Source of the DNA: an uncultured Holophagaceae bacterium
GTDB lineage: Bacteria; Acidobacteriota; Holophagae; Holophagales; Holophagaceae
Direction of reading: 5' to 3'
Length of the DNA stretch: 64,000 nucleotides
Assembly: GCA_903937385.1 (NCBI GenBank)
Contig: CAIZZF010000006.1
Span: 1 to 64,000 of the forward strand
The position numbers and the translations under genes were made by a program. The notes below the pieces were generated by a model, which saw nothing but the letters and a program-made list of their open reading frames with translations, was not told where the DNA came from and did not search any database. Below, one piece after another: positions 1,869 to 55,654 of this stretch. How positions within the stretch are numbered: the stretch's first letter is position 1; each line of letters opens with the position of its first letter.

Positions 1869-2870
1869 TCAGGCGGGCCAGCCCCCGGCGCTGCGCAGGC
1901 CGGTCCACTCGGGCAGGCCCAGGCTGAGGTTGAGGTTCTGCACGGCCTGGGTGGCCATGCCCTTGCCCAGGTTGTCCAGGGCCACCAGCACCACCCCGTG
2001 TCCGCCCTTGGCCGCGACGGCGAGATCGGCGAAGGCGCTGCCGAGGGTGGCCGCCACCCGGGGCGTCCCGTCGACGATGCGGACGAAGAATCGGCCCTGA
2101 TAGAAAGCTTCGAAGTGGGCCTTCAGGGCGGCGGTATCCATTCCGGCGGGAAGCGGGAATTGAATGGTCGCAAAGATCCCCCGCACCATGGGCGCACTCT
2201 GCGGCACGAAGCTGAGGGGCGCCTCCCAGCCCGCCGTGGCCAGGGTGCGGAGCACTTCGGCCTCGTGCTGGTGGGACAGGATCTTGTAGGCCTTGAAGTC
2301 GTGGGCGCGGACCGGGTGGTGGGTGGTCTCCGAGAGGGCGGCCCCCGAGCCGCTGGAGCCCGTGGCAGCCGTGACCGCCACGAAGGCGGGCTGCCACTCC
2401 GCCAGGGGCAGCAGGGCCAGCTGCAGGGCCGTGGCGAAGCAGCCGGGGTTGGCGATGCGCTTGGCGCCGGCCATGCGCTCCGGCTGCCAGTCCACCAGGC
2501 CGTAGACCCAAGCGGGATCCAGGCGGAAGTCCGCAGAGAGGTCGATGACGGTGAGCCGCTCCAGCAGGCCTGGGTGGGTCTGGGCGGCTGCTTCCAGCTC
2601 GGGCCAGAGCTTGCCCAGCTCGCCGTGGGGCAGGGCCGAGAAGATCACTGGCGCCGGGCTACTGGCCAGGGCCTGAAAGTCCGGCGTGGCTTCGAAGACG
2701 CCGTCCACCAGGCCGCGCAGGTTCGGGTGCTGGGCGTGGAAGGGCTTGCCCGCGTGGCTGCGGGCCGTGCCCCGCAGCGAGGCCACCGCCGGGTGGTTGG
2801 AGAGCCAGCGCAGCAGCTCGCCCCCGCCGTAGCCGGAGGCACCGAGGATCAGGACATCGACTTGGGTCAT
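1869..2870 (-). CDS. argC: N-acetyl-gamma-glutamyl-phosphate reductase
   Basis: Reduces N-acetylglutamyl phosphate to the semialdehyde with NADPH, the third step of arginine synthesis in the cytoplasm. The 333-residue product has the N-terminal nucleotide-binding loop GASGYGGGELLR (residues 10-21) and the catalytic cysteine in NPGCFATALQ (Cys144). The length fits the short bacterial ArgC type. It is the last gene of the leftward arginine operon, 61 bases after the P-loop protein gene. The start is the ATG that begins MTQVDVLILG, just ahead of the nucleotide-binding strand. Control is expected from the ArgR operators about 7.9 kb upstream in front of argD. Confidence 0.95.
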   Translation of the reverse strand: MTQVDVLILGASGYGGGELLRWLSNHPAVASLRGTARSHAGKPFHAQHPNLRGLVDGVFEATPDFQALASSPAPVIFSALPHGELGKLWPELEAAAQTHPGLLERLTVIDLSADFRLDPAWVYGLVDWQPERMAGAKRIANPGCFATALQLALLPLAEWQPAFVAVTAATGSSGSGAALSETTHHPVRAHDFKAYKILSHQHEAEVLRTLATAGWEAPLSFVPQSAPMVRGIFATIQFPLPAGMDTAALKAHFEAFYQGRFFVRIVDGTPRVAATLGSAFADLAVAAKGGHGVVLVALDNLGKGMATQAVQNLNLSLGLPEWTGLRSAGGWPA

Positions 2871-2931
2871 GGAAGGTCACCTAATAAAAGCAAACCGCAG
2901 AGCACGCAGAGCAAAGGTTGAAAAAGTCTTT

Positions 2932-3984
2932 TCACGCCTTGGCCGCGAGCTTGGCTTCGACGAGGCCGAGGACGAACTTGCCGAGGGCTTCGGCGTCGGC
3001 GCGGGCGTTGCGGGCGGGCAGGCCCAGGGAGGCCACGAAGCGCTCGCCCACGCGGTTGTCCGTGGCGGGGCCGGCGATCAGGTCCGCCCGGATGCCGAAG
3101 GCACTCATGAGCTGATGGACGCCGCCGGCGACGCCCACGGGGTCGTTGGCGCAGAGGACGAAGGCGCCGCCCAGGGCCCGCAGGTCCGGGTCCTGCAGGA
3201 TGGCCTGCACGCCGTACTCGCCCATGATGCCGTCGCCGGTCTCAGCCACGATGACGTCCACGCCGTGGGCCGCCAGCTCCGAGAAGATGATGCGGGAGAC
3301 GCTGGCGGCGCTGCCCGCGTCGGTGCAGACGCAGCCCGCATCCGTGAAGTCCAGGGCCACCTCGGCGCCGTAGTCCCGCATGGCCAGGGCGTCGCGCATG
3401 AGCGAGACCCCCGTGAGCTTGCAGGCGCCCACGCGGTAGCCCGCGCGGCTCAGCTGCCGGATGGCGGCGCAGGCGGCGGCGGTCTTGCCCGCGTTCATGC
3501 AGGTGCCCGCCACGTAGACCACGGGGCAGTGGGGCGAGAGGCTGGTGCCCTGCAGGGCGCCCATGCGGATGTGGGCCGCCTGGCCCGCGCGGCTCTGGAA
3601 CTCGGGGAAGACCTGCACCTGGCCCAGGACTTCCATCTCGAAGGGCTTGCCCAGGTCCGGGTTGTAGGACAGGCAGGTGCCGATGACCCCGCCCATGTTG
3701 AGCAGGTTCACGGTGTCGCCGGTCTTGAGGGAGGTCGGCAGCACACCCTCGTAGCCCTGGAGGGCGTTCCGGTGGCCGAGGGCGCCCACCAGGATGTCCC
3801 CGTCGTGCAGCGTGCTCATGCGGCCGTGGGGATCCTCCAGCTGGTTGTAGGTGGTCTTCTCGCCGCGCAGGCGGCAGGCGATGACCGAGCCCTCCTCCAG
3901 GAGGATCTCGGGTGCCAGGGTGAGCGTCCGCCCCAGCCGCAGGTTGCGGGTGACCGAAGCCAGCTTGTCGACGTGGATTCTCAT
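2932..3984 (-). CDS. P-loop NTPase-like protein embedded in arginine operon
   Basis: A 350-residue protein whose function I cannot name with certainty. The N-terminal 150 residues look like a beta-rich domain. From residue 160 there is a Walker A-like loop (GTCMNAGKTAA, Lys167-Thr168), then a dethiobiotin-synthetase/MobB-like P-loop fold with VIVAETGDG and VLCANDP motifs. The layout (N-terminal domain plus P-loop domain) resembles the DUF1611 group, some members of which are reported to be D-glutamate N-acetyltransferases (DgcN); that resemblance is from memory, not from alignment. The gene lies between argG (13 bases upstream) and argC (61 bases downstream), in the same operon. The operon lacks an N-acetylglutamate synthase, so an acyltransferase role is an attractive guess. 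An ATP-dependent ligase or kinase remains possible. Confidence 0.6.
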   Translation of the reverse strand: MRIHVDKLASVTRNLRLGRTLTLAPEILLEEGSVIACRLRGEKTTYNQLEDPHGRMSTLHDGDILVGALGHRNALQGYEGVLPTSLKTGDTVNLLNMGGVIGTCLSYNPDLGKPFEMEVLGQVQVFPEFQSRAGQAAHIRMGALQGTSLSPHCPVVYVAGTCMNAGKTAAACAAIRQLSRAGYRVGACKLTGVSLMRDALAMRDYGAEVALDFTDAGCVCTDAGSAASVSRIIFSELAAHGVDVIVAETGDGIMGEYGVQAILQDPDLRALGGAFVLCANDPVGVAGGVHQLMSAFGIRADLIAGPATDNRVGERFVASLGLPARNARADAEALGKFVLGLVEAKLAAKA

Positions 3985-3997
3985 GGGTGCCTTCGGA

Positions 3998-5185
3998 TCA
4001 GTTGTTCTTTGCTTTCAACGTCAGGGTCTGCTGGACGCCGAAGATCTTGGCGAAGCCGGCGGCTTCGACGCCGGTCCACAGCCGGTTGGCCTCGCCGTAG
4101 GTGGCGATGCGGGGGTCCATGAGGGAGTAGGGCGACTGGACGCCCTCCACCACGAAGGCCCGGGGGTGCAGGGTGACGCGCACCTCGCCGCTGACGCGGT
4201 CCTGGCTGGAGTCCAGGAAGGCCTCAAGGTCCCGCGCCAGGGGATCGAAGAAGTGGCCCTCGTGCAGGAGGCTGCCGTAGAGGTTGCCCAGGGACTCCTT
4301 CCAGAAGAGCTGCTTGCCGGACAGCACGAGCTTCTCCAGCTCCCGGTGGGCGCCGATGAGCAGGTGCGCGGCGGGGGCCTCGTAGCCCACGCGGCCCTTG
4401 ATGCCGAGGATGGTGTCGCCCAGGTGGACGCCCCGGCCGATGCCGTAGGGGCGGCCCAGGTCGTTGAGGCGGGCGATGAGGGTGACGGGGTCCAGGGACT
4501 GGCCGTCCAGGGACACGGGGACGCCGTGTTCGAAGCCGATGACCAGGGCGGTGGGTTCCGGGTGGCCGATGACGCCGCCGGGGAAGGCCGCCTCGGGCAG
4601 GCTGCTCCAGGGATCCAGGGTCTCCCGGCCGCCCACGCTGGTGCCCCACATGCCTTCGTTGATGGAGTAGTCCTTGGTCTTCTCGGGGAACACCAGGCCG
4701 CGCTGGGCGCAGTAGTCCATCTCCTCGGCCCGGGACAGGTTCAGGTCGCGGATGGGGGTCAGGATCTCCAGGTCTGGCGCCAGGGCGCGGAAGGCCACGT
4801 CGAAGCGCACCTGGTCGTTGCCGGCGCCGGTGGAGCCGTGGGCGATGGCGGTGGCGCCCATGTCCTTGGCCAGCTCCGCCACGGCCCGGGCCTGGCAGAC
4901 CCGCTCGGCGGACACGGACAGGGGATACATCTGGCCACGCAGCACGTTGCCATAGACCAGGTAGCGCAGGTAGCCATCAAAGAGGCCGGCGCGGGCATCC
5001 ACGGTGGTGTGGCTGATGGCGCCCAGCTTCGGCGAGGCCGCCTCGATGCGGGCCAGCTCCGCGGGTGAGAACCCGCCGGTGTTCACCGTGACCGTGGCCA
5101 CGTCGTAGCCCTGCTCCTTCAGGTAGAACACGCAGAAGGACGTATCGAGACCGCCGGAGAAGGCGAGGACAGCGAGCTTGCTCAT
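3998..5185 (-). CDS. argG: Argininosuccinate synthase
   Basis: Joins citrulline and aspartate with ATP to give argininosuccinate. The 395-residue product has the N-type ATP pyrophosphatase P-loop near the N terminus (AFSGGLDTSFCVFYL) and the family signature GSTGAGNDQVRFD. Length is normal for ArgG. The open frame extends about 100 codons further upstream into argH, but that part is argH read in another frame. The ATG at 5185 is preceded by AGG at normal distance and begins MSKLAVLAFSGG. It sits 37 bases after argH and 13 bases before the P-loop gene, so it is operonic. Confidence 0.96.
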   Translation of the reverse strand: MSKLAVLAFSGGLDTSFCVFYLKEQGYDVATVTVNTGGFSPAELARIEAASPKLGAISHTTVDARAGLFDGYLRYLVYGNVLRGQMYPLSVSAERVCQARAVAELAKDMGATAIAHGSTGAGNDQVRFDVAFRALAPDLEILTPIRDLNLSRAEEMDYCAQRGLVFPEKTKDYSINEGMWGTSVGGRETLDPWSSLPEAAFPGGVIGHPEPTALVIGFEHGVPVSLDGQSLDPVTLIARLNDLGRPYGIGRGVHLGDTILGIKGRVGYEAPAAHLLIGAHRELEKLVLSGKQLFWKESLGNLYGSLLHEGHFFDPLARDLEAFLDSSQDRVSGEVRVTLHPRAFVVEGVQSPYSLMDPRIATYGEANRLWTGVEAAGFAKIFGVQQTLTLKAKNN

Positions 5186-5222
5186 GGGAGACCTTTCACG
5201 GAGAGAGCGTCGATCGAATTCC

Positions 5223-6575
5223 CTAAGCCCACAAGGCCTCCTCGGCCTGGGCGTGGGTGTCGGCTTTGGCCTGGATCCAGGCGCGGGCGGCGGCGAGGTC
5301 GGCGGCGAGGTCGTCCAGGGCCAGGTTGCCGGCGCCGCCGAGGTGCGTGGCGGTGAGGGCGCTGCGGTCCGGGGCGAAGGTGCCGTCCTGGAGCTGCTGG
5401 GCCACCTTGCGGTAGGCGTCGCGGAAGGGCAGGCCCCCCTGCACCAGGACGTAGGCCTGATGGGCGGCGTAGAGCTCATCGGACGAGGCCGCGGCGGTGG
5501 CGTCGGCCTGCACCTGCAGCGCGGGCAGCAGGGGCTTCAGCACAGCGAAGAGGTCGTCGGCGCTGCGCAGGGCGGTGACCAGGGGCCGCTTCAGCAGCTG
5601 CAGGTCCCGGTGGTAGCTGGAGGGCAGGCCCGCGGCGAGCTGCTCGAGCAGGCCCGCGGCGCCGCGCAGCTCGCGACAGCGGCCCCGGGCCAGCTCCACG
5701 ACGTCCGGGTTCTTCTTCTGGGGCATGATGCTCGAGCCCGTGGTGTAGGCGTCAGGCAGCTTGAGGAAGCCGAACTCCTCGGTGCTGTAGAGCGACACGT
5801 CCCACAGGAACTTCTCCAGGACACCGCCGGTGGAGGCGGCCCACTGGAGCAGGGCGACCTCGTGGCGGCCTCGGCTGTTCTGCACGTCGATGGGGCTGCG
5901 CTGGACCTTGGAGAAGCCCAGCAGCCGCGCCGTGAGGGCCCGGTCGATGGGCAGGGGCACGCCGAAGCCCGCTGCCGATCCCAGGGGGCAGCGGTCCAGG
6001 CGGCCGTAGACGCCCTGCAGGGCCTCCAGCTCTTCCAGCAGACCCTCGGCAAAGGCCGTGGCCCAGAGGCCGAAGGTGCTCGGCATGGCCCGCCGCAGGT
6101 GGGTGTAGCCGGGCAGGGGGGTGTCGCGGTGGGCTTTGGCGAAGGCCAGGAAGGCCTCGGCCAGGTCTGCGACCCGCAGGCCCAGGCGCACCAGGGCGTC
6201 CCGCTGGTAGAGCCGCAGGGCGAGGATGACCTGGTCGTTGCGGGAGCGGCCCAGGTGGATGCGCGCCCCGGCGGCGCCGAAGCGCTGGGTGAGGTTGGCC
6301 TCGATGGCGGTGTGGCAGTCCTCCATGGCCACCGGGATGGCGAAGCTCCCCGTCCGGGCAGCCGTGGCGATGTCCCGCAGGCCGCCCACCAGGGCCTCGG
6401 CATCCGCCGCGGGGATCAGGCCCGTGGCGGCCAGCATCTTGGCGTGGGCCGCACTGCCCAGGGCGTCCCAGGCCACCAGGGCCAGGTCCGTGTCCGGATC
6501 CTCACCCACGGTGAACTGGTGGATGGCCTCATCCAGAGGCACGTCCTTGGCCCAGAGCCGGCCGGGTTCACTCAT
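5223..6575 (-). CDS. argH: Argininosuccinate lyase
   Basis: Splits argininosuccinate into arginine and fumarate, the last step of the pathway. The 450-residue protein carries the fumarase/aspartase superfamily signature GSSIMPQKKNPD and the substrate-binding segment GRSRNDQV. The ATG at 6575 (MSEPGRLWAK) overlaps the stop of the deacylase gene by 8 bases, indicating translational coupling. Upstream in-frame codons belong to the shadow of the M20 gene and are not conserved in ArgH. Confidence 0.95.
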   Translation of the reverse strand: MSEPGRLWAKDVPLDEAIHQFTVGEDPDTDLALVAWDALGSAAHAKMLAATGLIPAADAEALVGGLRDIATAARTGSFAIPVAMEDCHTAIEANLTQRFGAAGARIHLGRSRNDQVILALRLYQRDALVRLGLRVADLAEAFLAFAKAHRDTPLPGYTHLRRAMPSTFGLWATAFAEGLLEELEALQGVYGRLDRCPLGSAAGFGVPLPIDRALTARLLGFSKVQRSPIDVQNSRGRHEVALLQWAASTGGVLEKFLWDVSLYSTEEFGFLKLPDAYTTGSSIMPQKKNPDVVELARGRCRELRGAAGLLEQLAAGLPSSYHRDLQLLKRPLVTALRSADDLFAVLKPLLPALQVQADATAAASSDELYAAHQAYVLVQGGLPFRDAYRKVAQQLQDGTFAPDRSALTATHLGGAGNLALDDLAADLAAARAWIQAKADTHAQAEEALWA

Positions 6576-7632
6576 GGGGCACCTGCAGGGAGAAGAAGAG
6601 CGTCGCCAGCTGCTGGTAGAAGGCCGCGCCGGCCTCGATCTCAGGCAGGGTGATGTGCTCGTTGGGGCGGTGGCTGCGGAAGGTGTCGCCGGGGCCCACC
6701 TTGACCGTGGGGATGTCGCCCAGGAAGGCCCAGTCCGAGGTGGTGCCAGAGCCCACGGGACCGGCCTTGCCCGCGGCCTGGAGGGCGGCGCGGACGATGG
6801 CTTCCCGGGGGTCCGTGGCCTTGGGCAGGTAGCGCTTGGAGTGGATGGCGACCTGGCTCTCGAGGCGGCCCTGGAAGTCTGCCGCCAGCTCATCGTGGTC
6901 CTGGTCCGGACCCGTGCGCAGGTCGATGAAGAACTCGCAGGCATCGGGCACCTGGTTCCGCCAGAGGCCGCCCTGGATCTGGGTGACCTGGGCCTTCTGG
7001 GAGCCCAGCAGCTGGTGGGGGGGAAACTCCATGGCGGCCACGCGGGTGATGTCCCGGGCGGCCTTGTGGATGGCGTTCTCGGCGCCCAGCATCTGGGCGT
7101 TGGCGACGTGGCCGCTCTGGCCCCGGGCCGTGCACTTCAGCACCAGCAGGCCCCGCTGGGCGGCGCAGACGCGCAGGCCCGTGGGCTCGCCCACCACAGC
7201 GCCATCGAAGTGGCCCAGCTCGCCCAGGATGGTGGCGATGCCGTTGCCGCCGGTCTCTTCCTCGGCGGTGAGGGCCACGGTCACTTCGCCCTCCAGGGAC
7301 TGCTCGGAGAGCTCGAAGGCCGCGAGCAGGATGGAGGCCACCGAGGCCTTGGCGTCGTTGGCGCCCAGGCCCTGGAGGCGGGCTCCGTTCCAGATCGGCG
7401 TGAAGGGATCGCCCTCCCAGCCGGCGCAAGGCGGGACCGTGTCCAGGTGGGAGTTCATGAGCAGGCGCTTGCCGCCGGTGGCCCCGAAGCTGAACCAGAG
7501 GTTGTGGTCCTGCCGGTGCACCTGGAAGCCGCGGGCGGTGAGCAGGTCCTGCAGCAGGTCCGCGATGGCGCCTTCGCCGCCGGACACACTGGGGGTGCCG
7601 ACCAGGAGGGTGATGAGCTCGGCGGGGTTCAT
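6568..7632 (-). CDS. M20 deacylase, probable N-acetylcitrulline/N-acetylornithine deacetylase
   Basis: A 354-residue M20/ArgE-DapE metallohydrolase. Visible metal-site elements are HLDTVPP, GANDAKAS, the catalytic pair in AEEETGG and GEPTGLR. In this operon it lies between argB and argH, and the transcarbamylase works on N-acylated ornithine, so by analogy with the Xanthomonas pathway this enzyme should remove the acyl group from N-acylcitrulline. Its start (MNPAELITLL) overlaps the stop of argB by 4 bases (ATGA) and its own stop overlaps argH by 8. LysK- or DapE-like substrate use cannot be excluded from sequence, but the arginine operon context argues against it. Confidence 0.88.
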   Translation of the reverse strand: MNPAELITLLVGTPSVSGGEGAIADLLQDLLTARGFQVHRQDHNLWFSFGATGGKRLLMNSHLDTVPPCAGWEGDPFTPIWNGARLQGLGANDAKASVASILLAAFELSEQSLEGEVTVALTAEEETGGNGIATILGELGHFDGAVVGEPTGLRVCAAQRGLLVLKCTARGQSGHVANAQMLGAENAIHKAARDITRVAAMEFPPHQLLGSQKAQVTQIQGGLWRNQVPDACEFFIDLRTGPDQDHDELAADFQGRLESQVAIHSKRYLPKATDPREAIVRAALQAAGKAGPVGSGTTSDWAFLGDIPTVKVGPGDTFRSHRPNEHITLPEIEAGAAFYQQLATLFFSLQVPHE

Positions 7633-8546
7633 CCGGCCACCGCCGCGACCGGAGTGGGGATGATCATGGTGCCGCTGCCCTCGTTGGTGAAGACCTCGGC
7701 CAGCAGGGCGTCCGGGAGCAGGCCGCTGACGATGTGGGCGCTGGCCACGCCGCTGGCGAGGGCGGCCCGCACGGCGGTGAGCTTGGGCCGCATGCCGCCG
7801 CTGATGGCACCTTCCTTCTCCAGGACAGCCAGCTCGTCCAGCGTGGCGTGGGGGATCAGGGAGGAGCTCTTGTTGACATCCTTCAGCAGGCCCGGCACCG
7901 AGAGCAGGAAGAAGATCTTCTCGGCAGCCAGGGCCGAGGCCAGGCTGGCGGCGATGGTGTCGGCGTTGGTGTTGTAGATGGCGCCATCGGTGCCACCCGA
8001 GAGGGGCGCCACCACGGGCACGAAGCCACCTTCCAGCAGGTGGGTGAGCACCCGGGGATCCACGGAGTCGATGTCGCCCACCAGGCCGAAGTCCACGAGC
8101 ACGGGCTCGGTGGCGCCATCGGGCACCACGGACACCGGGGGTCGCTTGCTGGCCTTGATCAGGCCCGCGTCCACGCCCGAGAGGCCCACGGCGGGCACGC
8201 CATTGGCCTGGAGCTCGGCGAGGAGGTCCATGTGCACCTGGCCCGCGAAGACCATCTTGGCGGCGTCCAGCACCTCGGGGGTGGTGACCCGGCGTCCCGC
8301 CACCTTCTGGATGGGGATGTCCATGGCCCGGCACACGGCGTCCAGCTCGGGGCCGCCGCCGTGCACCAGCACCACGCGGATGGAGAAGCTCCAGAGCAGG
8401 GCGATCTGCTCGCAGAGGGCCTTGCGCATCTTGGGCTCGGCGATGACCTCGCCGCCCACCTTGATCAGGAAGGTCTTCCCGCGCCAGAGGCGCACGAACT
8501 GGGAGGCTTCCTTGAGGGCGGCGTAGGGATTCGGGGACAGGGGCAT
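7629..8546 (-). CDS. argB: Acetylglutamate kinase
   Basis: Phosphorylates N-acetylglutamate, the second step of arginine synthesis. The 305-residue amino-acid-kinase-fold protein shows KVGGEVI, VLVHGGGPELD, the substrate segment AGRRVTTPEVLD and NTNADTIAASLA, and ends with the GTMI motif typical of ArgB. An N-terminal extension of about 25 residues precedes the first strand; in arginine-sensitive kinases an N-terminal helix mediates hexamer formation, so feedback inhibition by arginine is possible. It is coupled to the downstream M20 gene by an ATGA overlap and follows argF' by 33 bases. Confidence 0.95.
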   Translation of the reverse strand: MPLSPNPYAALKEASQFVRLWRGKTFLIKVGGEVIAEPKMRKALCEQIALLWSFSIRVVLVHGGGPELDAVCRAMDIPIQKVAGRRVTTPEVLDAAKMVFAGQVHMDLLAELQANGVPAVGLSGVDAGLIKASKRPPVSVVPDGATEPVLVDFGLVGDIDSVDPRVLTHLLEGGFVPVVAPLSGGTDGAIYNTNADTIAASLASALAAEKIFFLLSVPGLLKDVNKSSSLIPHATLDELAVLEKEGAISGGMRPKLTAVRAALASGVASAHIVSGLLPDALLAEVFTNEGSGTMIIPTPVAAVAG

Positions 8547-8579
8547 GGGATTCTCGCGGGCGAAAAGCGGGGCTTGGGC

Positions 8580-9572
8580 TCAGGACTGGTTGAGCAGGCT
8601 GGCGATGGTGGCGCGCTGCACATGGAAGCGGTTCTCGGCCTCATCGACCACGCGGCTCCAGGGGCCGTCGAGGACGCTGTCGTGGACCTCGAGGTTGCGG
8701 CGCACGGGCAGGCAGTGCGTGAAGATGGCCTCCTTCGCGGCCTTCTGCATGTGGGCGGCGGTGGGCATCCAGGCGGACAGGTCCGTCATGGGCGCGGCCT
8801 CCAGGCCCGAGCTGGTGGAGGGCCCCCAGGCCTTGGCGTAGACCGCAGCGCTGCCTTCGAGGGCGGCGTCCTGGTCGTGGGTGTAGGTGATCTTCCCGCC
8901 GGTGGCGGCGGCGTAGCGCTCGGCCTCGGCCCGGACCTCGGCGGACAGCTCGTAGCCCTTGGGGTGGGCCACGCGGATCTCGGCGCCGCAGGCGGCGGCG
9001 GTGAGCAGGAAGGAGTTGGGCACAGCCTTGGGCAGGGGCTTCATGTGGGGCGCCCAGGTGAGGGTCACGGGCACTTTTGTCGAGCCGTGGGCTTCCTGGA
9101 TGGTGAGCATGTCGGCGAGGCCCTGGTGGGGATGCTCGCGGGCGCTCTCCATGCTGAGCACGGGCACCGTGGAGAAGCGCCGGAAGGCACTGATGACGGG
9201 ATCGATCTCGTCGGTGGCGTCGCCCTCGCCGCCGCTGAAGGTGCGCACGGCCAGCAGGTCCGCGTAGCGGCCCAGCACAGGCACGCCCTCACGGACGTGC
9301 TCGGCGCGGTCGGCGTTCATGATGGCGCCGTCGCGGTCCTCCAGCTTCCAGGTGCCGGCGCCCACCTCGAGCACGATGGCATGGCCGCCGTGGCGCAGCA
9401 TGGCCGCCTCGAAGCTGGCCCGGGTGCGCAGGCTGGGGTTGAAGAAGATCATGCCGAGGATGCGGTCCGCGAAGATGGCGCCGGGGCGGGTCTTCTTCCA
9501 CTCGGCGGCCACGGCCAGGATCTGCTTGACCCCTTCGGGGCCCAGGTCGGAGATGCGGGTGAAGTGCTTCAT
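8580..9572 (-). CDS. N-acyl-L-ornithine transcarbamylase (acetyl- or succinyl-ornithine type)
   Basis: A 330-residue carbamoyltransferase. It has the carbamoyl-phosphate loop FFNPSLRTRASFE and the C-terminal HCLPVRRN. Unlike ordinary ArgF it carries TWAPHMKPLPKAVPNS, which matches the acylornithine-specific TWTYHPKPL region of Xanthomonas AOTCase and the Bacteroides succinyl enzyme. It should therefore carbamoylate N-acyl-ornithine rather than ornithine. The position that separates acetyl (Glu92 in Xanthomonas) from succinyl (Pro90 in Bacteroides) use appears to be Ala90 here (ADRAEH), so acyl preference is open. An ATGA overlap couples it to argD upstream. Confidence 0.9.
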   Translation of the reverse strand: MKHFTRISDLGPEGVKQILAVAAEWKKTRPGAIFADRILGMIFFNPSLRTRASFEAAMLRHGGHAIVLEVGAGTWKLEDRDGAIMNADRAEHVREGVPVLGRYADLLAVRTFSGGEGDATDEIDPVISAFRRFSTVPVLSMESAREHPHQGLADMLTIQEAHGSTKVPVTLTWAPHMKPLPKAVPNSFLLTAAACGAEIRVAHPKGYELSAEVRAEAERYAAATGGKITYTHDQDAALEGSAAVYAKAWGPSTSSGLEAAPMTDLSAWMPTAAHMQKAAKEAIFTHCLPVRRNLEVHDSVLDGPWSRVVDEAENRFHVQRATIASLLNQS

Positions 9573-10717
9573 GGTTGCTCCGGCACGAAGGCGTGGATGG
9601 CGGCGATGAGGGCATCAAGGGCCGCGTCGCCGAGGTTGAGGGGGGGCATCAGGCGCAGCACCGTGGGGTCGCTGGAGCCGCCCACCAGTATGTGCCTGGC
9701 CAGCAGGTGCTTCTTCAGGGCGGCGGCGGGGGCGCAGCGCAGGCCCAGCAGCAGGCCCTCGCCGAGGACCTCGGTGACGATGGAATCGGCCAGCTCTCGG
9801 CGCAGGCGCGCGGCGGCGGCAGTGGCGTTGGCCAGCATGCCCTCGGTGGTGATGGCGTCGACGGTGGCGATGAGCGCGGCGCAGGCCAGGGGCCCGCCCC
9901 CGAAGGTGCTGCCCAGGTCACCGCCCTTGAGCTTCGCGGCCACCTCGGCGGTCATGAGCAGGGCGCCCATGGGCACGCCGGAGGCCAGGCCCTTGGCGCT
10001 GGTCATGAAGTCCGGCCGGACCCCGTAGAACTGGGCGGCGAAGGGGGTGCCCAGGCGGCCCATGCCGGTCTGGATCTCGTCGAAGATGAGCAGGGTGCCC
10101 GTAGCGTCGCACTTGGCGCGCAGGGCCTGGAACCACTCCCGGGAGGCGGTCTTGATGCCGGCCATGCTCTGGATGGGCTCGACGATGACGCCCGCCACGT
10201 CCGAGAAGTCGGCGGCGGCCAGGGCCGCGAGGTCGCCGAAGGGAATGCGCAGGGTCGGCACCAGCTGGTCCGCGTAGGGCTGGGTGATCTTGGGATCGTC
10301 CGTGACGGACAGGGCCAACAGCGTCCGGCCGTGCCAGCCGCCGTCGAAGGCGCCCAGGTGCTTCCGGCCCGTGAGCAGCAGGGCCAGCTTCAGGGCGTTC
10401 TCGTTGGCCTCGGCGCCGCTGTTGCAGAAGAACACCGAGTCCATGCCGGAGAAGGCGGTGATGCGCTCGGCGGCCACGTCCCGCACGGGCAGAGCGGCGG
10501 CGGCGGAGTAGAACAGCAGCGTCGCCGCCTGATCCGCCACGGCCTTCACCACGGCCGGGTGGCTGTGCCCCGTGGCGCAGACGCAGTGGCCGCCGTAGAA
10601 GTCCCACCAGGCCTGGCCCGCGTCATCAAACACCCGGTCGCCCTCGCCCCGCACCAGGGGAAAGGGATAGGGGGCGTAGGTGGGGAGCAGGGCGGGAATC
10701 GGGGCGGTGGCGGCCAT
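9569..10717 (-). CDS. argD: Acetylornithine aminotransferase
   Basis: PLP-dependent class III aminotransferase, 382 residues, that converts N-acetylglutamate semialdehyde to N-acetylornithine. The cofactor lysine lies in TSAKGLASGVPMG, and FDEIQTGMGR and GWHGRTLLA are the expected PLP-pocket segments. The start is taken as the ATG at 10717 (MAATAPIPALL), preceded by AGGA at suitable distance. An in-frame ATG about 30 bases further up lies in the operator/promoter region and is unlikely. First gene of the operon; its promoter overlaps an ARG-box-like palindrome at 10740-10772. Confidence 0.93.
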   Translation of the reverse strand: MAATAPIPALLPTYAPYPFPLVRGEGDRVFDDAGQAWWDFYGGHCVCATGHSHPAVVKAVADQAATLLFYSAAAALPVRDVAAERITAFSGMDSVFFCNSGAEANENALKLALLLTGRKHLGAFDGGWHGRTLLALSVTDDPKITQPYADQLVPTLRIPFGDLAALAAADFSDVAGVIVEPIQSMAGIKTASREWFQALRAKCDATGTLLIFDEIQTGMGRLGTPFAAQFYGVRPDFMTSAKGLASGVPMGALLMTAEVAAKLKGGDLGSTFGGGPLACAALIATVDAITTEGMLANATAAAARLRRELADSIVTEVLGEGLLLGLRCAPAAALKKHLLARHILVGGSSDPTVLRLMPPLNLGDAALDALIAAIHAFVPEQP

Positions 10718-10739
10718 GGGGAGATCCTGTTCAGAGACG

Positions 10740-10772
10740 TGCATTATCATGCGACAGAACGCATATTATGCA
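10740..10772. promoter_or_regulatory. ARG-box-like operator in front of argD
   Basis: An imperfect palindrome, TGCATTATCATGCG and CGCATATTATGCA separated by six bases. The half-sites share TGCAT/ATGCA with the second operator next to argR. It covers the proposed -10 box of the argD promoter, so ArgR bound here would block the operon. Confidence 0.7.
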
Positions 10773-10792
10773 CCAACCGAAACAGGGCTCAA
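10763..10792 (-). promoter_or_regulatory. Probable argD operon promoter
   Basis: Reading leftward: a -35-like TTGAGC (10787-10792) and a -10-like TAATAT (10763-10768) separated by 18 bases. The -10 is inside the palindromic operator. The predicted transcript starts about 40 bases before the argD ATG. Confidence 0.6.
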
Positions 10793-10833
10793 GCAAAAAT
10801 CCTGCGACTTAATGAGACCATTTTGAATTTCAT

Positions 10834-10862
10834 TTGATGAATTATGCATTTTTATGCATAAT
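10834..10862 (+). promoter_or_regulatory. Probable argR promoter
   Basis: TTGATG (10834-10839), a 17-base spacer and CATAAT (10857-10862). The -10 ends seven bases before the ATG at 10869, so transcription would begin at or next to the start codon and the mRNA could be leaderless. That agrees with the absence of a Shine-Dalgarno sequence. Confidence 0.5.
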
Positions 10863-10866
10863 TCAT
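10837..10866. promoter_or_regulatory. Perfect palindromic ARG-box operator at argR
   Basis: Twelve-base perfect arms, ATGAATTATGCA and TGCATAATTCAT, around a six-base TTTTTA spacer. The arms contain the TGAAT/ATTCA halves of the classical ARG box. It overlaps the proposed argR promoter, so argR is probably autorepressed, and it faces the argD operon 65 bases away, leaving room for cooperative or looped binding by an ArgR hexamer. Confidence 0.75.
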
Positions 10867-10868
10867 GC

Positions 10869-11273
10869 ATGAACGTGGACGCTCTCATCCTCCAGTTGCT
10901 GGCGGACTCCCCCATCTCGGACCAGGGGGACCTGCTGGCGCGGCTGGCCGCGTTGGGTTGCGAGCTCACCCAGTCCACCCTGTCCCGGCGCCTGAAGCGG
11001 CTGGGCGTGCAGAAGATCCAGGGGCAGTACCGCCGGGGGGAGGCCAGTCCCAAGGCCCTGCCCGAGGTCACCCTCCGCGAGGCCCCGCCGAACCTGCTGG
11101 TCCTGCGGACCTCGCCGGGCTTCGCCCAGGCCCTGGGCTTCAGCCTGGACGCGGACCCCATCGAGGGCCAGATGGGCACCCTGGCCGGCGATGACACCGT
11201 GTTCGTGGCCGTGCTGCCCGAGCGCCTCGCCGAGGTGAAGGCGCACCTGCTGCGGGTGCTGGCGGGTCGGTAG
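10869..11273 (+). CDS. argR: Arginine repressor ArgR
   Basis: A 134-residue transcriptional regulator, slightly shorter than the usual 150. The N-terminal winged helix runs from about residue 4 to 65 (helix-turn-helix around LTQSTLSRRLKRLGV). The C-terminal oligomerisation and arginine-binding domain carries QMGTLAGDDTVFVAV, matching the GTIAGDDT hallmark including the acidic pair that contacts arginine. It is divergent from the argD operon. I chose the ATG at 10869; an ATG at 10854 lies inside the operator palindrome and has no ribosome site. Confidence 0.92.
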   Translation: MNVDALILQLLADSPISDQGDLLARLAALGCELTQSTLSRRLKRLGVQKIQGQYRRGEASPKALPEVTLREAPPNLLVLRTSPGFAQALGFSLDADPIEGQMGTLAGDDTVFVAVLPERLAEVKAHLLRVLAGR

Positions 11274-28286: not shown

Positions 28287-29057
28287 ATGATGCACATCCT
28301 GCTTTCCCGCTGGCGCCAGGGTCACCGCACGCTCCCCTATCCCAAGGAGCTGCCGAGCCTCCCGGCCCGCTTCCAGGGCCTGCCCCGGATCGAGGCGGCG
28401 AAGTGTCCGGAGGCGTGTCGCCTCTGCGCGGAGGCCTGTCCCGTGGCGGCCATCGGCTTCGGCCCCGGCGGACCCAGTCTGGACCTGGGCCGCTGTGTGT
28501 TCTGTCCCGCCTGTGTGGAGGCCTGCCCCGAAGGCGCCATCGCGTTCACCGGGGACCACCGCCTGGCCACCACCAGCCGCGAGGCCCTGGTCACGACTGG
28601 GGCTGACCGCTACGCCCGCGCCGAGGCCCTGGGCGCGGAGCTCAAGCGGGTGCTGGGGCGGTCTCTGAAGCTGCGGGTGGTGAGCGCCGGCGGCTGCAAC
28701 GGCTGTGAGGTCGACGTGAACGTGCTGGGGACACTGGCCTGGGATCTCGGCCGCTTCGGCATCCAGTACGTGGCCTCGCCGCGGCACGCCGATGGCCTGC
28801 TGGTCACGGGGCCGGTCACCCGCAACATGGAGCTGGCCCTGCGGAAGACCTACGACGCGGTGCCCGGACCCAAGATCGTCATCGCCGTGGGCGCCTGCGC
28901 CATCCAGGGCGGCCCCTACTGCCACCGGGAGGAGCAGCTGGGCGGCGTCGGCAGCGTGCTGCCCGTGGACCTCTACATCCCTGGCTGTCCGCCCCATCCG
29001 CTGACCATCCTGGATGGGCTGCTGCGGCTGCTCGGAAAACTGAACGAGCCCCGCTGA
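28287..29057 (+). CDS. Ehr complex small subunit with fused two-cluster ferredoxin domain (HyfH-HyfI type)
   Basis: A 256-residue protein combining two subunits that are separate in E. coli hydrogenase 4. Residues 40-51 (C-x3-C-x2-C-x3-CP) and 70-81 (C-x2-C-x2-C-x3-CP) bind two [4Fe-4S] clusters. From residue 130 the NuoB/HyfI-like part follows, with GGCNGCEVDVN (Cys137, Cys140), VGACAIQGG and PGCPPHP supplying the proximal cluster. The electron path up to the catalytic subunit is thus intact although the [NiFe] site is gone. The ATG at 28287 follows GAGGAAG and is seven bases after the previous stop. Confidence 0.9.
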   Translation: MMHILLSRWRQGHRTLPYPKELPSLPARFQGLPRIEAAKCPEACRLCAEACPVAAIGFGPGGPSLDLGRCVFCPACVEACPEGAIAFTGDHRLATTSREALVTTGADRYARAEALGAELKRVLGRSLKLRVVSAGGCNGCEVDVNVLGTLAWDLGRFGIQYVASPRHADGLLVTGPVTRNMELALRKTYDAVPGPKIVIAVGACAIQGGPYCHREEQLGGVGSVLPVDLYIPGCPPHPLTILDGLLRLLGKLNEPR

Positions 29058-29072
29058 GGCGGGGCTCGTTCA
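29041..29072. terminator. Bidirectional hairpin terminator
   Basis: A perfect 14-base stem (TGAACGAGCCCCGC with its complement, loop TGAG) that includes the stop codon of the small-subunit gene. It lies between two convergent genes. Read leftward it is followed by GTTTTCC, so it should end the glutamate dehydrogenase side at least as well as the rightward operon. Confidence 0.75.
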
Positions 29073-32441: not shown

Positions 32442-32472
32442 AGCACAGGCCGGGCTTTGCCCGGCCTGTGCT
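32442..32472 (-). terminator. Intergenic hairpin between rpmA and obg
   Basis: A perfect 14-base stem, AGCACAGGCCGGGC and its complement, with a three-base loop. Read leftward it is followed by TTATTCC, a weak T stretch. It probably acts as a partial terminator or processing site that lowers obg expression relative to the ribosomal proteins. Confidence 0.55.
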
Positions 32473-32834: not shown

Positions 32835-32862
32835 CTAGTTTTTTCGCGAGCGAAAAAACTAG
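32835..32862. repeat. Perfect inverted repeat over the rplU stop codon
   Basis: CTAGTTTTTTCG and CGAAAAAACTAG with a CGAG loop. It contains the rplU stop codon and lies about 55 bases before the rpmA start. Read leftward the downstream flank is A-rich rather than T-rich, so simple termination is doubtful; attenuation or RNA processing is more likely. Confidence 0.55.
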
Positions 32863-55433: not shown

Positions 55434-55610
55434 AGCGTCCTTCCTTGTGCTTTCAGGAAGACCCAGGGGCTTCGAGTAATAGAACAGAAACGGGTCATCA
55501 ATGTCTACTAAATGCTGTCATGGTAGATTTTGTGACATTTTTATGACAATCGGATGGACCACAGCCGATGCTGGACCCTTCCCGGGAGCCCGCGGCTCCT
55601 CCTGAAAAGC

Positions 55611-55636
55611 GAAAAGCCGCCCGGAGGCGGCTTTTC
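55611..55636 (-). terminator. Terminator downstream of rpsR
   Basis: An 11-base perfect stem GAAAAGCCGCC with its complement around CGGA, 18 bases after the rpsR stop. Read leftward the stem ends in GGCTTTTC followed by GCTTTTC, a good T-rich end. Confidence 0.8.
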
Positions 55637-55654
55637 GGAGCGTGCCAGCGGAGA

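Follow-up and report, generated by a model that had tools for sequence, protein, structure and literature searches.

Gene Content of the Locus

The window, i.e., the whole 64,000-nt stretch of DNA that was analysed, covers positions 1–64000 of its contig within a 3.68-Mb genome of 97.8% completeness. In it argD (minus strand) and argR (plus strand) are divergent, with a control region between them (10740–10879), and the other genes of the arg run lie on the argD strand (Table 1). One of these encodes an N-acetylornithine carbamoyltransferase, an enzyme which we take to belong to the Xanthomonas-type arginine route; for the same frame, the ornithine carbamoyltransferase models of NCBIfam stayed below their own cut-offs and the N-acetylornithine carbamoyltransferase model was above its own. 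The ORF at 2932–3984 (minus strand), between argG and argC, gave a sub-threshold match to the DUF1611 P-loop domain of Pfam (15.8 bits, cut-off 25). For the small subunit of carbamoyl phosphate synthase, a possible second ArgR target, the best score in the genome was 54.5 bits, below the family cut-off that was exceeded in all 14 control genomes. The plasmid search returned no record spanning 80% of the query; the five matches listed were all partial matches to argD.

Table 1. Coordinates of genes and predicted control elements at the argD–argR locus.
Feature	Positions	Strand	Basis
Remaining arg gene run: N-acetylornithine carbamoyltransferase, argB, M20 deacylase (argE-like), argH, argG, unknown ORF, argC	1869–9572	−	
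N-acetylornithine carbamoyltransferase	8580–9572	−	NF003384, 392 bits (cut-off 288)
argD	9569–10717	−	Aminotran_3, 284.7 bits (scored with the longer frame, start at 10750)
argD Shine-Dalgarno site, CAGGAT	10724–10729	−	Sequence; genus conservation
Second predicted argD ARG box, downstream of its predicted transcription start	10740–10753		1 mismatch
Main predicted ARG box of argD, covering its −10; 13 bp with a 3-nt centre	10760–10772		Found in 33/33 genus loci
Predicted argD promoter: −35 TTGAGC (10792–10787), −10 CATAAT (10770–10765) or TAATAT (10768–10763)	10763–10792	−	
argR −35, TTGATG	10834–10839	+	TT 33/33, TTG 32/33 genus sequences
Perfect palindrome, 13-nt arms, 4-nt centre	10837–10866		Inverted-repeat search
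Main predicted ARG box of argR, palindrome core, halves TGCAT and ATGCA around TTTT	10845–10858		Exact match
argR −10, CATAAT; overlaps the right ARG-box half	10857–10862	+	A2/T6 invariant, 33/33
Possible second ARG box of argR, weak, spanning the start codon, TGCATGAACGTGGA	10866–10879		2 mismatches
Predicted argR transcription start, A of ATG	10869	+	Inferred, T6 as −7
argR, arginine repressor, 134 aa from ATG 10869	10869–11273	+	Pfam domains; invariant Met

The ArgR Protein and Its Start Residue

Both domains of the ArgR/AhrC family, the N-terminal DNA-binding and the C-terminal arginine-binding domain, are present in the argR product, with Pfam scores above the cut-offs (Arg_repressor, 39.5 bits; Arg_repressor_C, 48.3 bits). 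The GT-x-x-GDDT motif is a hallmark of this family. It is found in the product as well: in an alignment of 15 rows, G108, G112, D113, D114, and T115 are invariant and T109 is almost so. The score against the NCBIfam equivalog TIGR01529 was 75 bits at a cut-off of 130.45, and the protein is a divergent member of the ArgR domain family rather than a strict equivalog. It is 78–95% identical to its counterparts in named Holophagaceae relatives, a Geothrix sp. among these. Two further genomes of the same family (G127 and G180) each contain two argR-like genes, and one of the copies in G127 (L159) has a Shine-Dalgarno-like AGGA. No argR match was found in three genomes of the same genus, G010, G011, and G284.

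The Met encoded at 10869 is invariant in all 15 aligned rows, which come from two families, whereas the Met at 10854 is confined to the rows of the genus and is missing in relatives of the other family. The start of argR was therefore placed at 10869.

Predicted Operator Boxes of argR and argD

Conservation was followed in 33 distinct sequences of the same genus. They were left from 34 collected rows after L046, whose upstream DNA is identical to that of L136, had been dropped; L045, L048, and further loci of genomes already sampled had been excluded beforehand as repeats. In the first-pass annotation, the argR side was described as a perfect palindrome with 12-base arms and TGAAT/ATTCA halves. 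The palindrome is indeed perfect and its arms are one base longer than stated. The TGAAT/ATTCA elements form only its outer arms, 18 nt apart, which are not conserved as a pair, the left one varying freely among the 33 sequences. The conserved halves are TGCAT and ATGCA, exact ARG-box half-sites with four bases between them, and positions 10844–10847 and 10854–10858 are invariant in all 33 sequences. The TGAATN4ATTCA pattern fits the argR region only with two mismatches, at the palindrome and at 10824–10837; the latter, a weak TGAATTTCATTTGA placed 21 bp upstream of the argR box, is not conserved in the genus.

The conservation of the core provides evidence for an operator that is independent of the chance statistics of palindromes. 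As for those statistics, perfect repeats with arms of at least 12 and a spacer of 0–8 were absent from 15 of 20 first-order Markov copies of the 64-kb window and gave 1–3 overlapping matches in the rest, while the real window has 11 overlapping matches from five places, the argR palindrome being one of them. When Markov copies were made of the 115-bp AT-rich region, 12 of 4000 contained any perfect repeat (arms of at least 10, spacer 3–8). The window has four more perfect inverted repeats whose arms reach at least 12 nt, at 29041–29072, 32442–32472, 32835–32862, and 55610–55637.

A second ARG box is suggested over the argR start codon. Its TGCAT (10866–10870) follows the first TGCAT of the argR box by exactly 21 bp, which is also the centre-to-centre spacing of the pair, and the TGC preceding the ATG is kept (T in 31, G in 33, and C in 32 of the 33 sequences) although these bases would be untranscribed in a leaderless gene. 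The box may be put no higher than this because its other half overlaps codons 3–4 and fits poorly.

On the argD side, the TGCAT-based palindrome that had been noticed over the −10 recurs at every genus locus and was thus borne out. The TGCAT half of the neighbouring box at 10740–10753 is kept in 29–32 of the 33 sequences at each base, and the two boxes are 19.5 bp apart from centre to centre; in many relatives another TGCAT was seen by eye ~21 bp beyond the outer box. The idea of ArgR-type operators in this divergent region hence stands, with the correction that, instead of two single operators, two sets comprising three or four boxes in all are probably present. Of the 33 genus loci, 32 have AGGA or GAGG and 26 have CAGGAT ahead of an ATG; the ATG at 10717 comes seven bases after the AGGA. 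Because the Shine-Dalgarno site and the start are kept in the relatives, the ATG at 10717–10715 is the more likely start of argD than the longer frame from 10750. The argD mRNA would then have a leader of ~40 nt with a Shine-Dalgarno site.

A genome search for the same palindrome, proposed in the first-pass annotation, yielded little. The argR box is the sole exact WTGCATNNNNATGCRW in the genome, and allowing up to one mismatch gave 10 forward and 7 reverse places compared with 6 and 6 for the reversed-pattern control, so that the near-match count hardly exceeds the control. At least three further exact TGCATN4ATGCA cores, among the places listed, lie inside frames of more than 100 codons. Fourteen loci, i.e., these three and the 11 one-mismatch places besides argR/argD, were inspected, and all but one (L266) fall within a frame exceeding 100 codons, the coding status of another (L257) being ambiguous. 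At L266, near position 1500 (G000:C25:59869), the ARG-box-like site lies in AT-rich DNA, and the ORF ~330 bp downstream of it has, by eye, the look of a transporter. A broader search of the TGCATN4ATGCA type yielded 55 places and 17 in the reversed control; this excess was rejected as evidence for operators, as the reversed pattern has different dinucleotides.

Predicted Promoter and Transcription Start of argR

The first-pass annotation had the argR −10 ending seven bases before the ATG, with no ribosome site and a possibly leaderless mRNA. The −10 does abut the start codon, at a distance of six bases; the spacing between −35 and −10 is 17 bp, and none of the 33 genus sequences has a gap between the −35 and ATG 10869. 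None of the Shine-Dalgarno motifs AGGA, GGAG, GAGG, and AAGG occurs in bases −22 to −3 of argR in any of the 33 rows, in keeping with the earlier description. Positions 3–5 of the −10 vary. Its A2 doubles as the final ARG-box base, and only T6 is −10 evidence independent of the box; the invariance of T6, lying outside the box, points to a −10 function. With T6 taken as −7 in the standard sigma70 numbering, the ungapped spacing puts +1 at the A of ATG 10869. The hexamer is of the CANNNT type, which is weaker than TANNNT. The promoter model gave a mean of 4.64 over the 33 loci at this −10 site against 2.46 at the next place, and ranked the site first in 13 loci and among the top two in 23; in 14 loci the best place was neither this site nor the hexamer seven bases upstream of it. 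The locus hence has the layout of a leaderless gene, i.e., a −10 ending ~6 nt before the start, a fixed spacing in all 33 sequences, and no Shine-Dalgarno motif, and the earlier suggestion of a leaderless argR is upheld in so far as the mRNA probably starts at ATG 10869.

Alternative Readings

Three other accounts of the argR start region were weighed. A very short leader of ~7 nt, again without a Shine-Dalgarno site, would result if the hexamer seven bases upstream (TTTTAT here and TTTCAT in relatives) served as the −10. This is unlikely, even though the promoter model places the best −10 there in 6 of the 33 loci and gives it the second-best mean, as the hexamer at 10850–10855 has no A at its second position, and its use would leave unexplained both the invariant T6 (10862) and the TTG 17 bp upstream of CATAAT. 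Translation might also begin at ATG 10854 within the operator, on a transcript from farther upstream, giving a protein longer by five residues. In all 33 genus loci these five codons form an open frame headed by ATG; nevertheless, that ATG belongs to the ARG box, residue 2 of the product would be H or Q and residues 3–4 vary widely, the extension is missing in the other family, where the Met aligns at 10869, and neither a Shine-Dalgarno motif (in −22 to −3 of 10869) nor a well-conserved upstream promoter is seen, which makes this start very improbable. The perfect 13-nt arms would suit a hairpin within the argR transcript. Such a role would be most improbable, given that the palindrome is upstream of the predicted transcription start and that the ARG-box core, not the outer pair of arms, is conserved.

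On the side of DNA binding, the first-pass annotation had envisaged looping by the ArgR hexamer, so that one hexamer would bridge both operator sets. The distance between the boxes is 85.5 bp in this genome, or 8.1 helical turns, and 82.5–88.5 bp in 31 of the 33 loci, as a loop would favour, and the full set of 33 gives a raw phase clustering of 0.65–0.76, albeit among close relatives. However, the distances spread over more than half a helical turn, two outliers have 187.5 and 208.5 bp, and over the eight distinct distances the clustering was non-significant (p ~0.11–0.84) for every helical repeat tried. As the set-to-set distance is not tightly kept, a loop is neither required nor supported; adjacent boxes at each promoter would be enough, and we regard looping as quite improbable. 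In L015 and L023, the operator sets between argD and argR are separated by an additional ~100–120 bp, in which GAACACAGAGGAC-like repeats occur.

Proposed Control of the Divergent Pair

We infer from the boxes and their conservation that 10740–10879 would be a pair of divergent promoters under ArgR control. At high arginine levels, an ArgR hexamer, as expected from the family, would bind the TGCAT/ATGCA ARG boxes. The argD set covers the −10 and the leader, and its occupation would shut off the arginine synthesis run; the argR set covers the −10 and probably the start codon, and would bring about negative autoregulation. The argR mRNA would start at the A of ATG 10869 and be translated by initiation at a 5′-terminal AUG, while the argD mRNA, with its ~40-nt leader, would use Shine-Dalgarno initiation. 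Taken as a whole, this explanation of an autorepressed leaderless argR opposite a Shine-Dalgarno argD appears likely. A wider proposition is more tentative and somewhat less than evenly balanced: that throughout the genus argR would be expressed only from leaderless mRNA, with promoter, start point, and start codon under one operator, so that the level of ArgR would be set jointly by autorepression and the capacity for leaderless translation, argD being read by the Shine-Dalgarno route.

The repressor and its main target, with one control region and seemingly different translation starts, offer a conserved natural case in which one can ask whether leaderless initiation keeps the repressor low or ties it to the state of the ribosome. 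Moreover, TGCAT emerges as the likely half-site of ArgR in the genus, an aid to predicting arginine regulation in a phylum that has received little study.

Comparison with Known Systems

The operator is of a known kind, and the conserved, probably leaderless layout is a modest twist on it. In excerpts of two papers, the E. coli ArgR boxes overlap the promoter −10 (PMC6640053) and the operators consist of two 18-bp boxes 3 bp apart, or 2 bp at argR (PMC6640053, PMC3293853). A hexamer on adjacent boxes is the known mode of ArgR, for which looping is unnecessary. The present locus resembles E. coli in boxes that overlap the promoter. Paired ARG boxes are ~20–21 bp apart from centre to centre; here the argD pair is at 19.5 bp, and the argR pair would be at 21 bp, its second box being weak. 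The DNA upstream of argR in E. coli K-12 contains TGCATAAAAATTCA ~45–60 bases before the argR start. By the positions of the E. coli argR promoter, this placement leaves room for a leader there, whereas the promoter here abuts the ATG.

The best PDB sequence match of ArgR was 3ere ('Arginine repressor'), which we take to be the M. tuberculosis protein. The ARG box of M. tuberculosis has TGCAT-type half-sites, and its argR lies within the arg operon; the organism belongs to another phylum than the present host. A search of open-licence PubMed Central papers for the M. tuberculosis TGCAT half-sites gave nothing usable.

The lambda cI repressor is self-regulated. It shares with ArgR, as read here, a repressor made from leaderless mRNA, and differs as an unrelated phage protein with no amino-acid co-repressor. 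In an excerpt of PMC9031893, lambda cI is named as leaderless. Among open-licence PubMed Central papers, the search for leaderless ArgR turned up one unrelated paper, none was found on arginine biosynthesis with a transcription start site, and the excerpt of PMC10783764 held nothing further on argR.

Spread of Predicted Leaderless Starts

Leaderless genes were predicted genome-wide in three Acidobacteria at a mean of 13.3% (9.7–19.4%) in the excerpt of PMC3160421, so that a leaderless argR would not be foreign to the organism; that set differs from the present case in being a genome-wide prediction, and the excerpt does not mention argR. Within 464 kb of the present genome (302 genes), TANNNT ended 5, 6, and 7 nt before an in-frame start 8, 10, and 5 times, 23 in all, whereas other positions averaged 3.7 each (range 0–11); the second-highest total for three adjacent positions, at 19–21 nt, was 20. 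From this, a leaderless excess of ~12–16 genes, or 4–5%, is estimated, which is no more than suggestive.

Across the phylum, an argR match was found in 192 of 297 genomes among the matches listed, from which 80 stretches of 78 genomes, mostly one per genus and from other genera, were picked. Two stretches ending at contig ends (L173 and L186) and one with no start call (L181) were dropped, and for the remaining 77 the starts were chosen by rule, some of them possibly wrongly. The best promoter was 5–8 nt before the argR start in 8 of the 77. In the 70 loci outside the family, TANNNT occurred four times at 5–8 nt, with no peak there and a peak at 17–22 nt. A phylum-wide leaderless argR, which had been suggestive by eye, was rejected on this systematic survey. 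In the seven other loci of the family, the best promoter was 5–6 nt from the argR start in three (L156, L158, and L160), and in a fourth (L155) a promoter at 5–6 nt ranked third. A leaderless argR looks like a property of the genus, and perhaps of part of the family.
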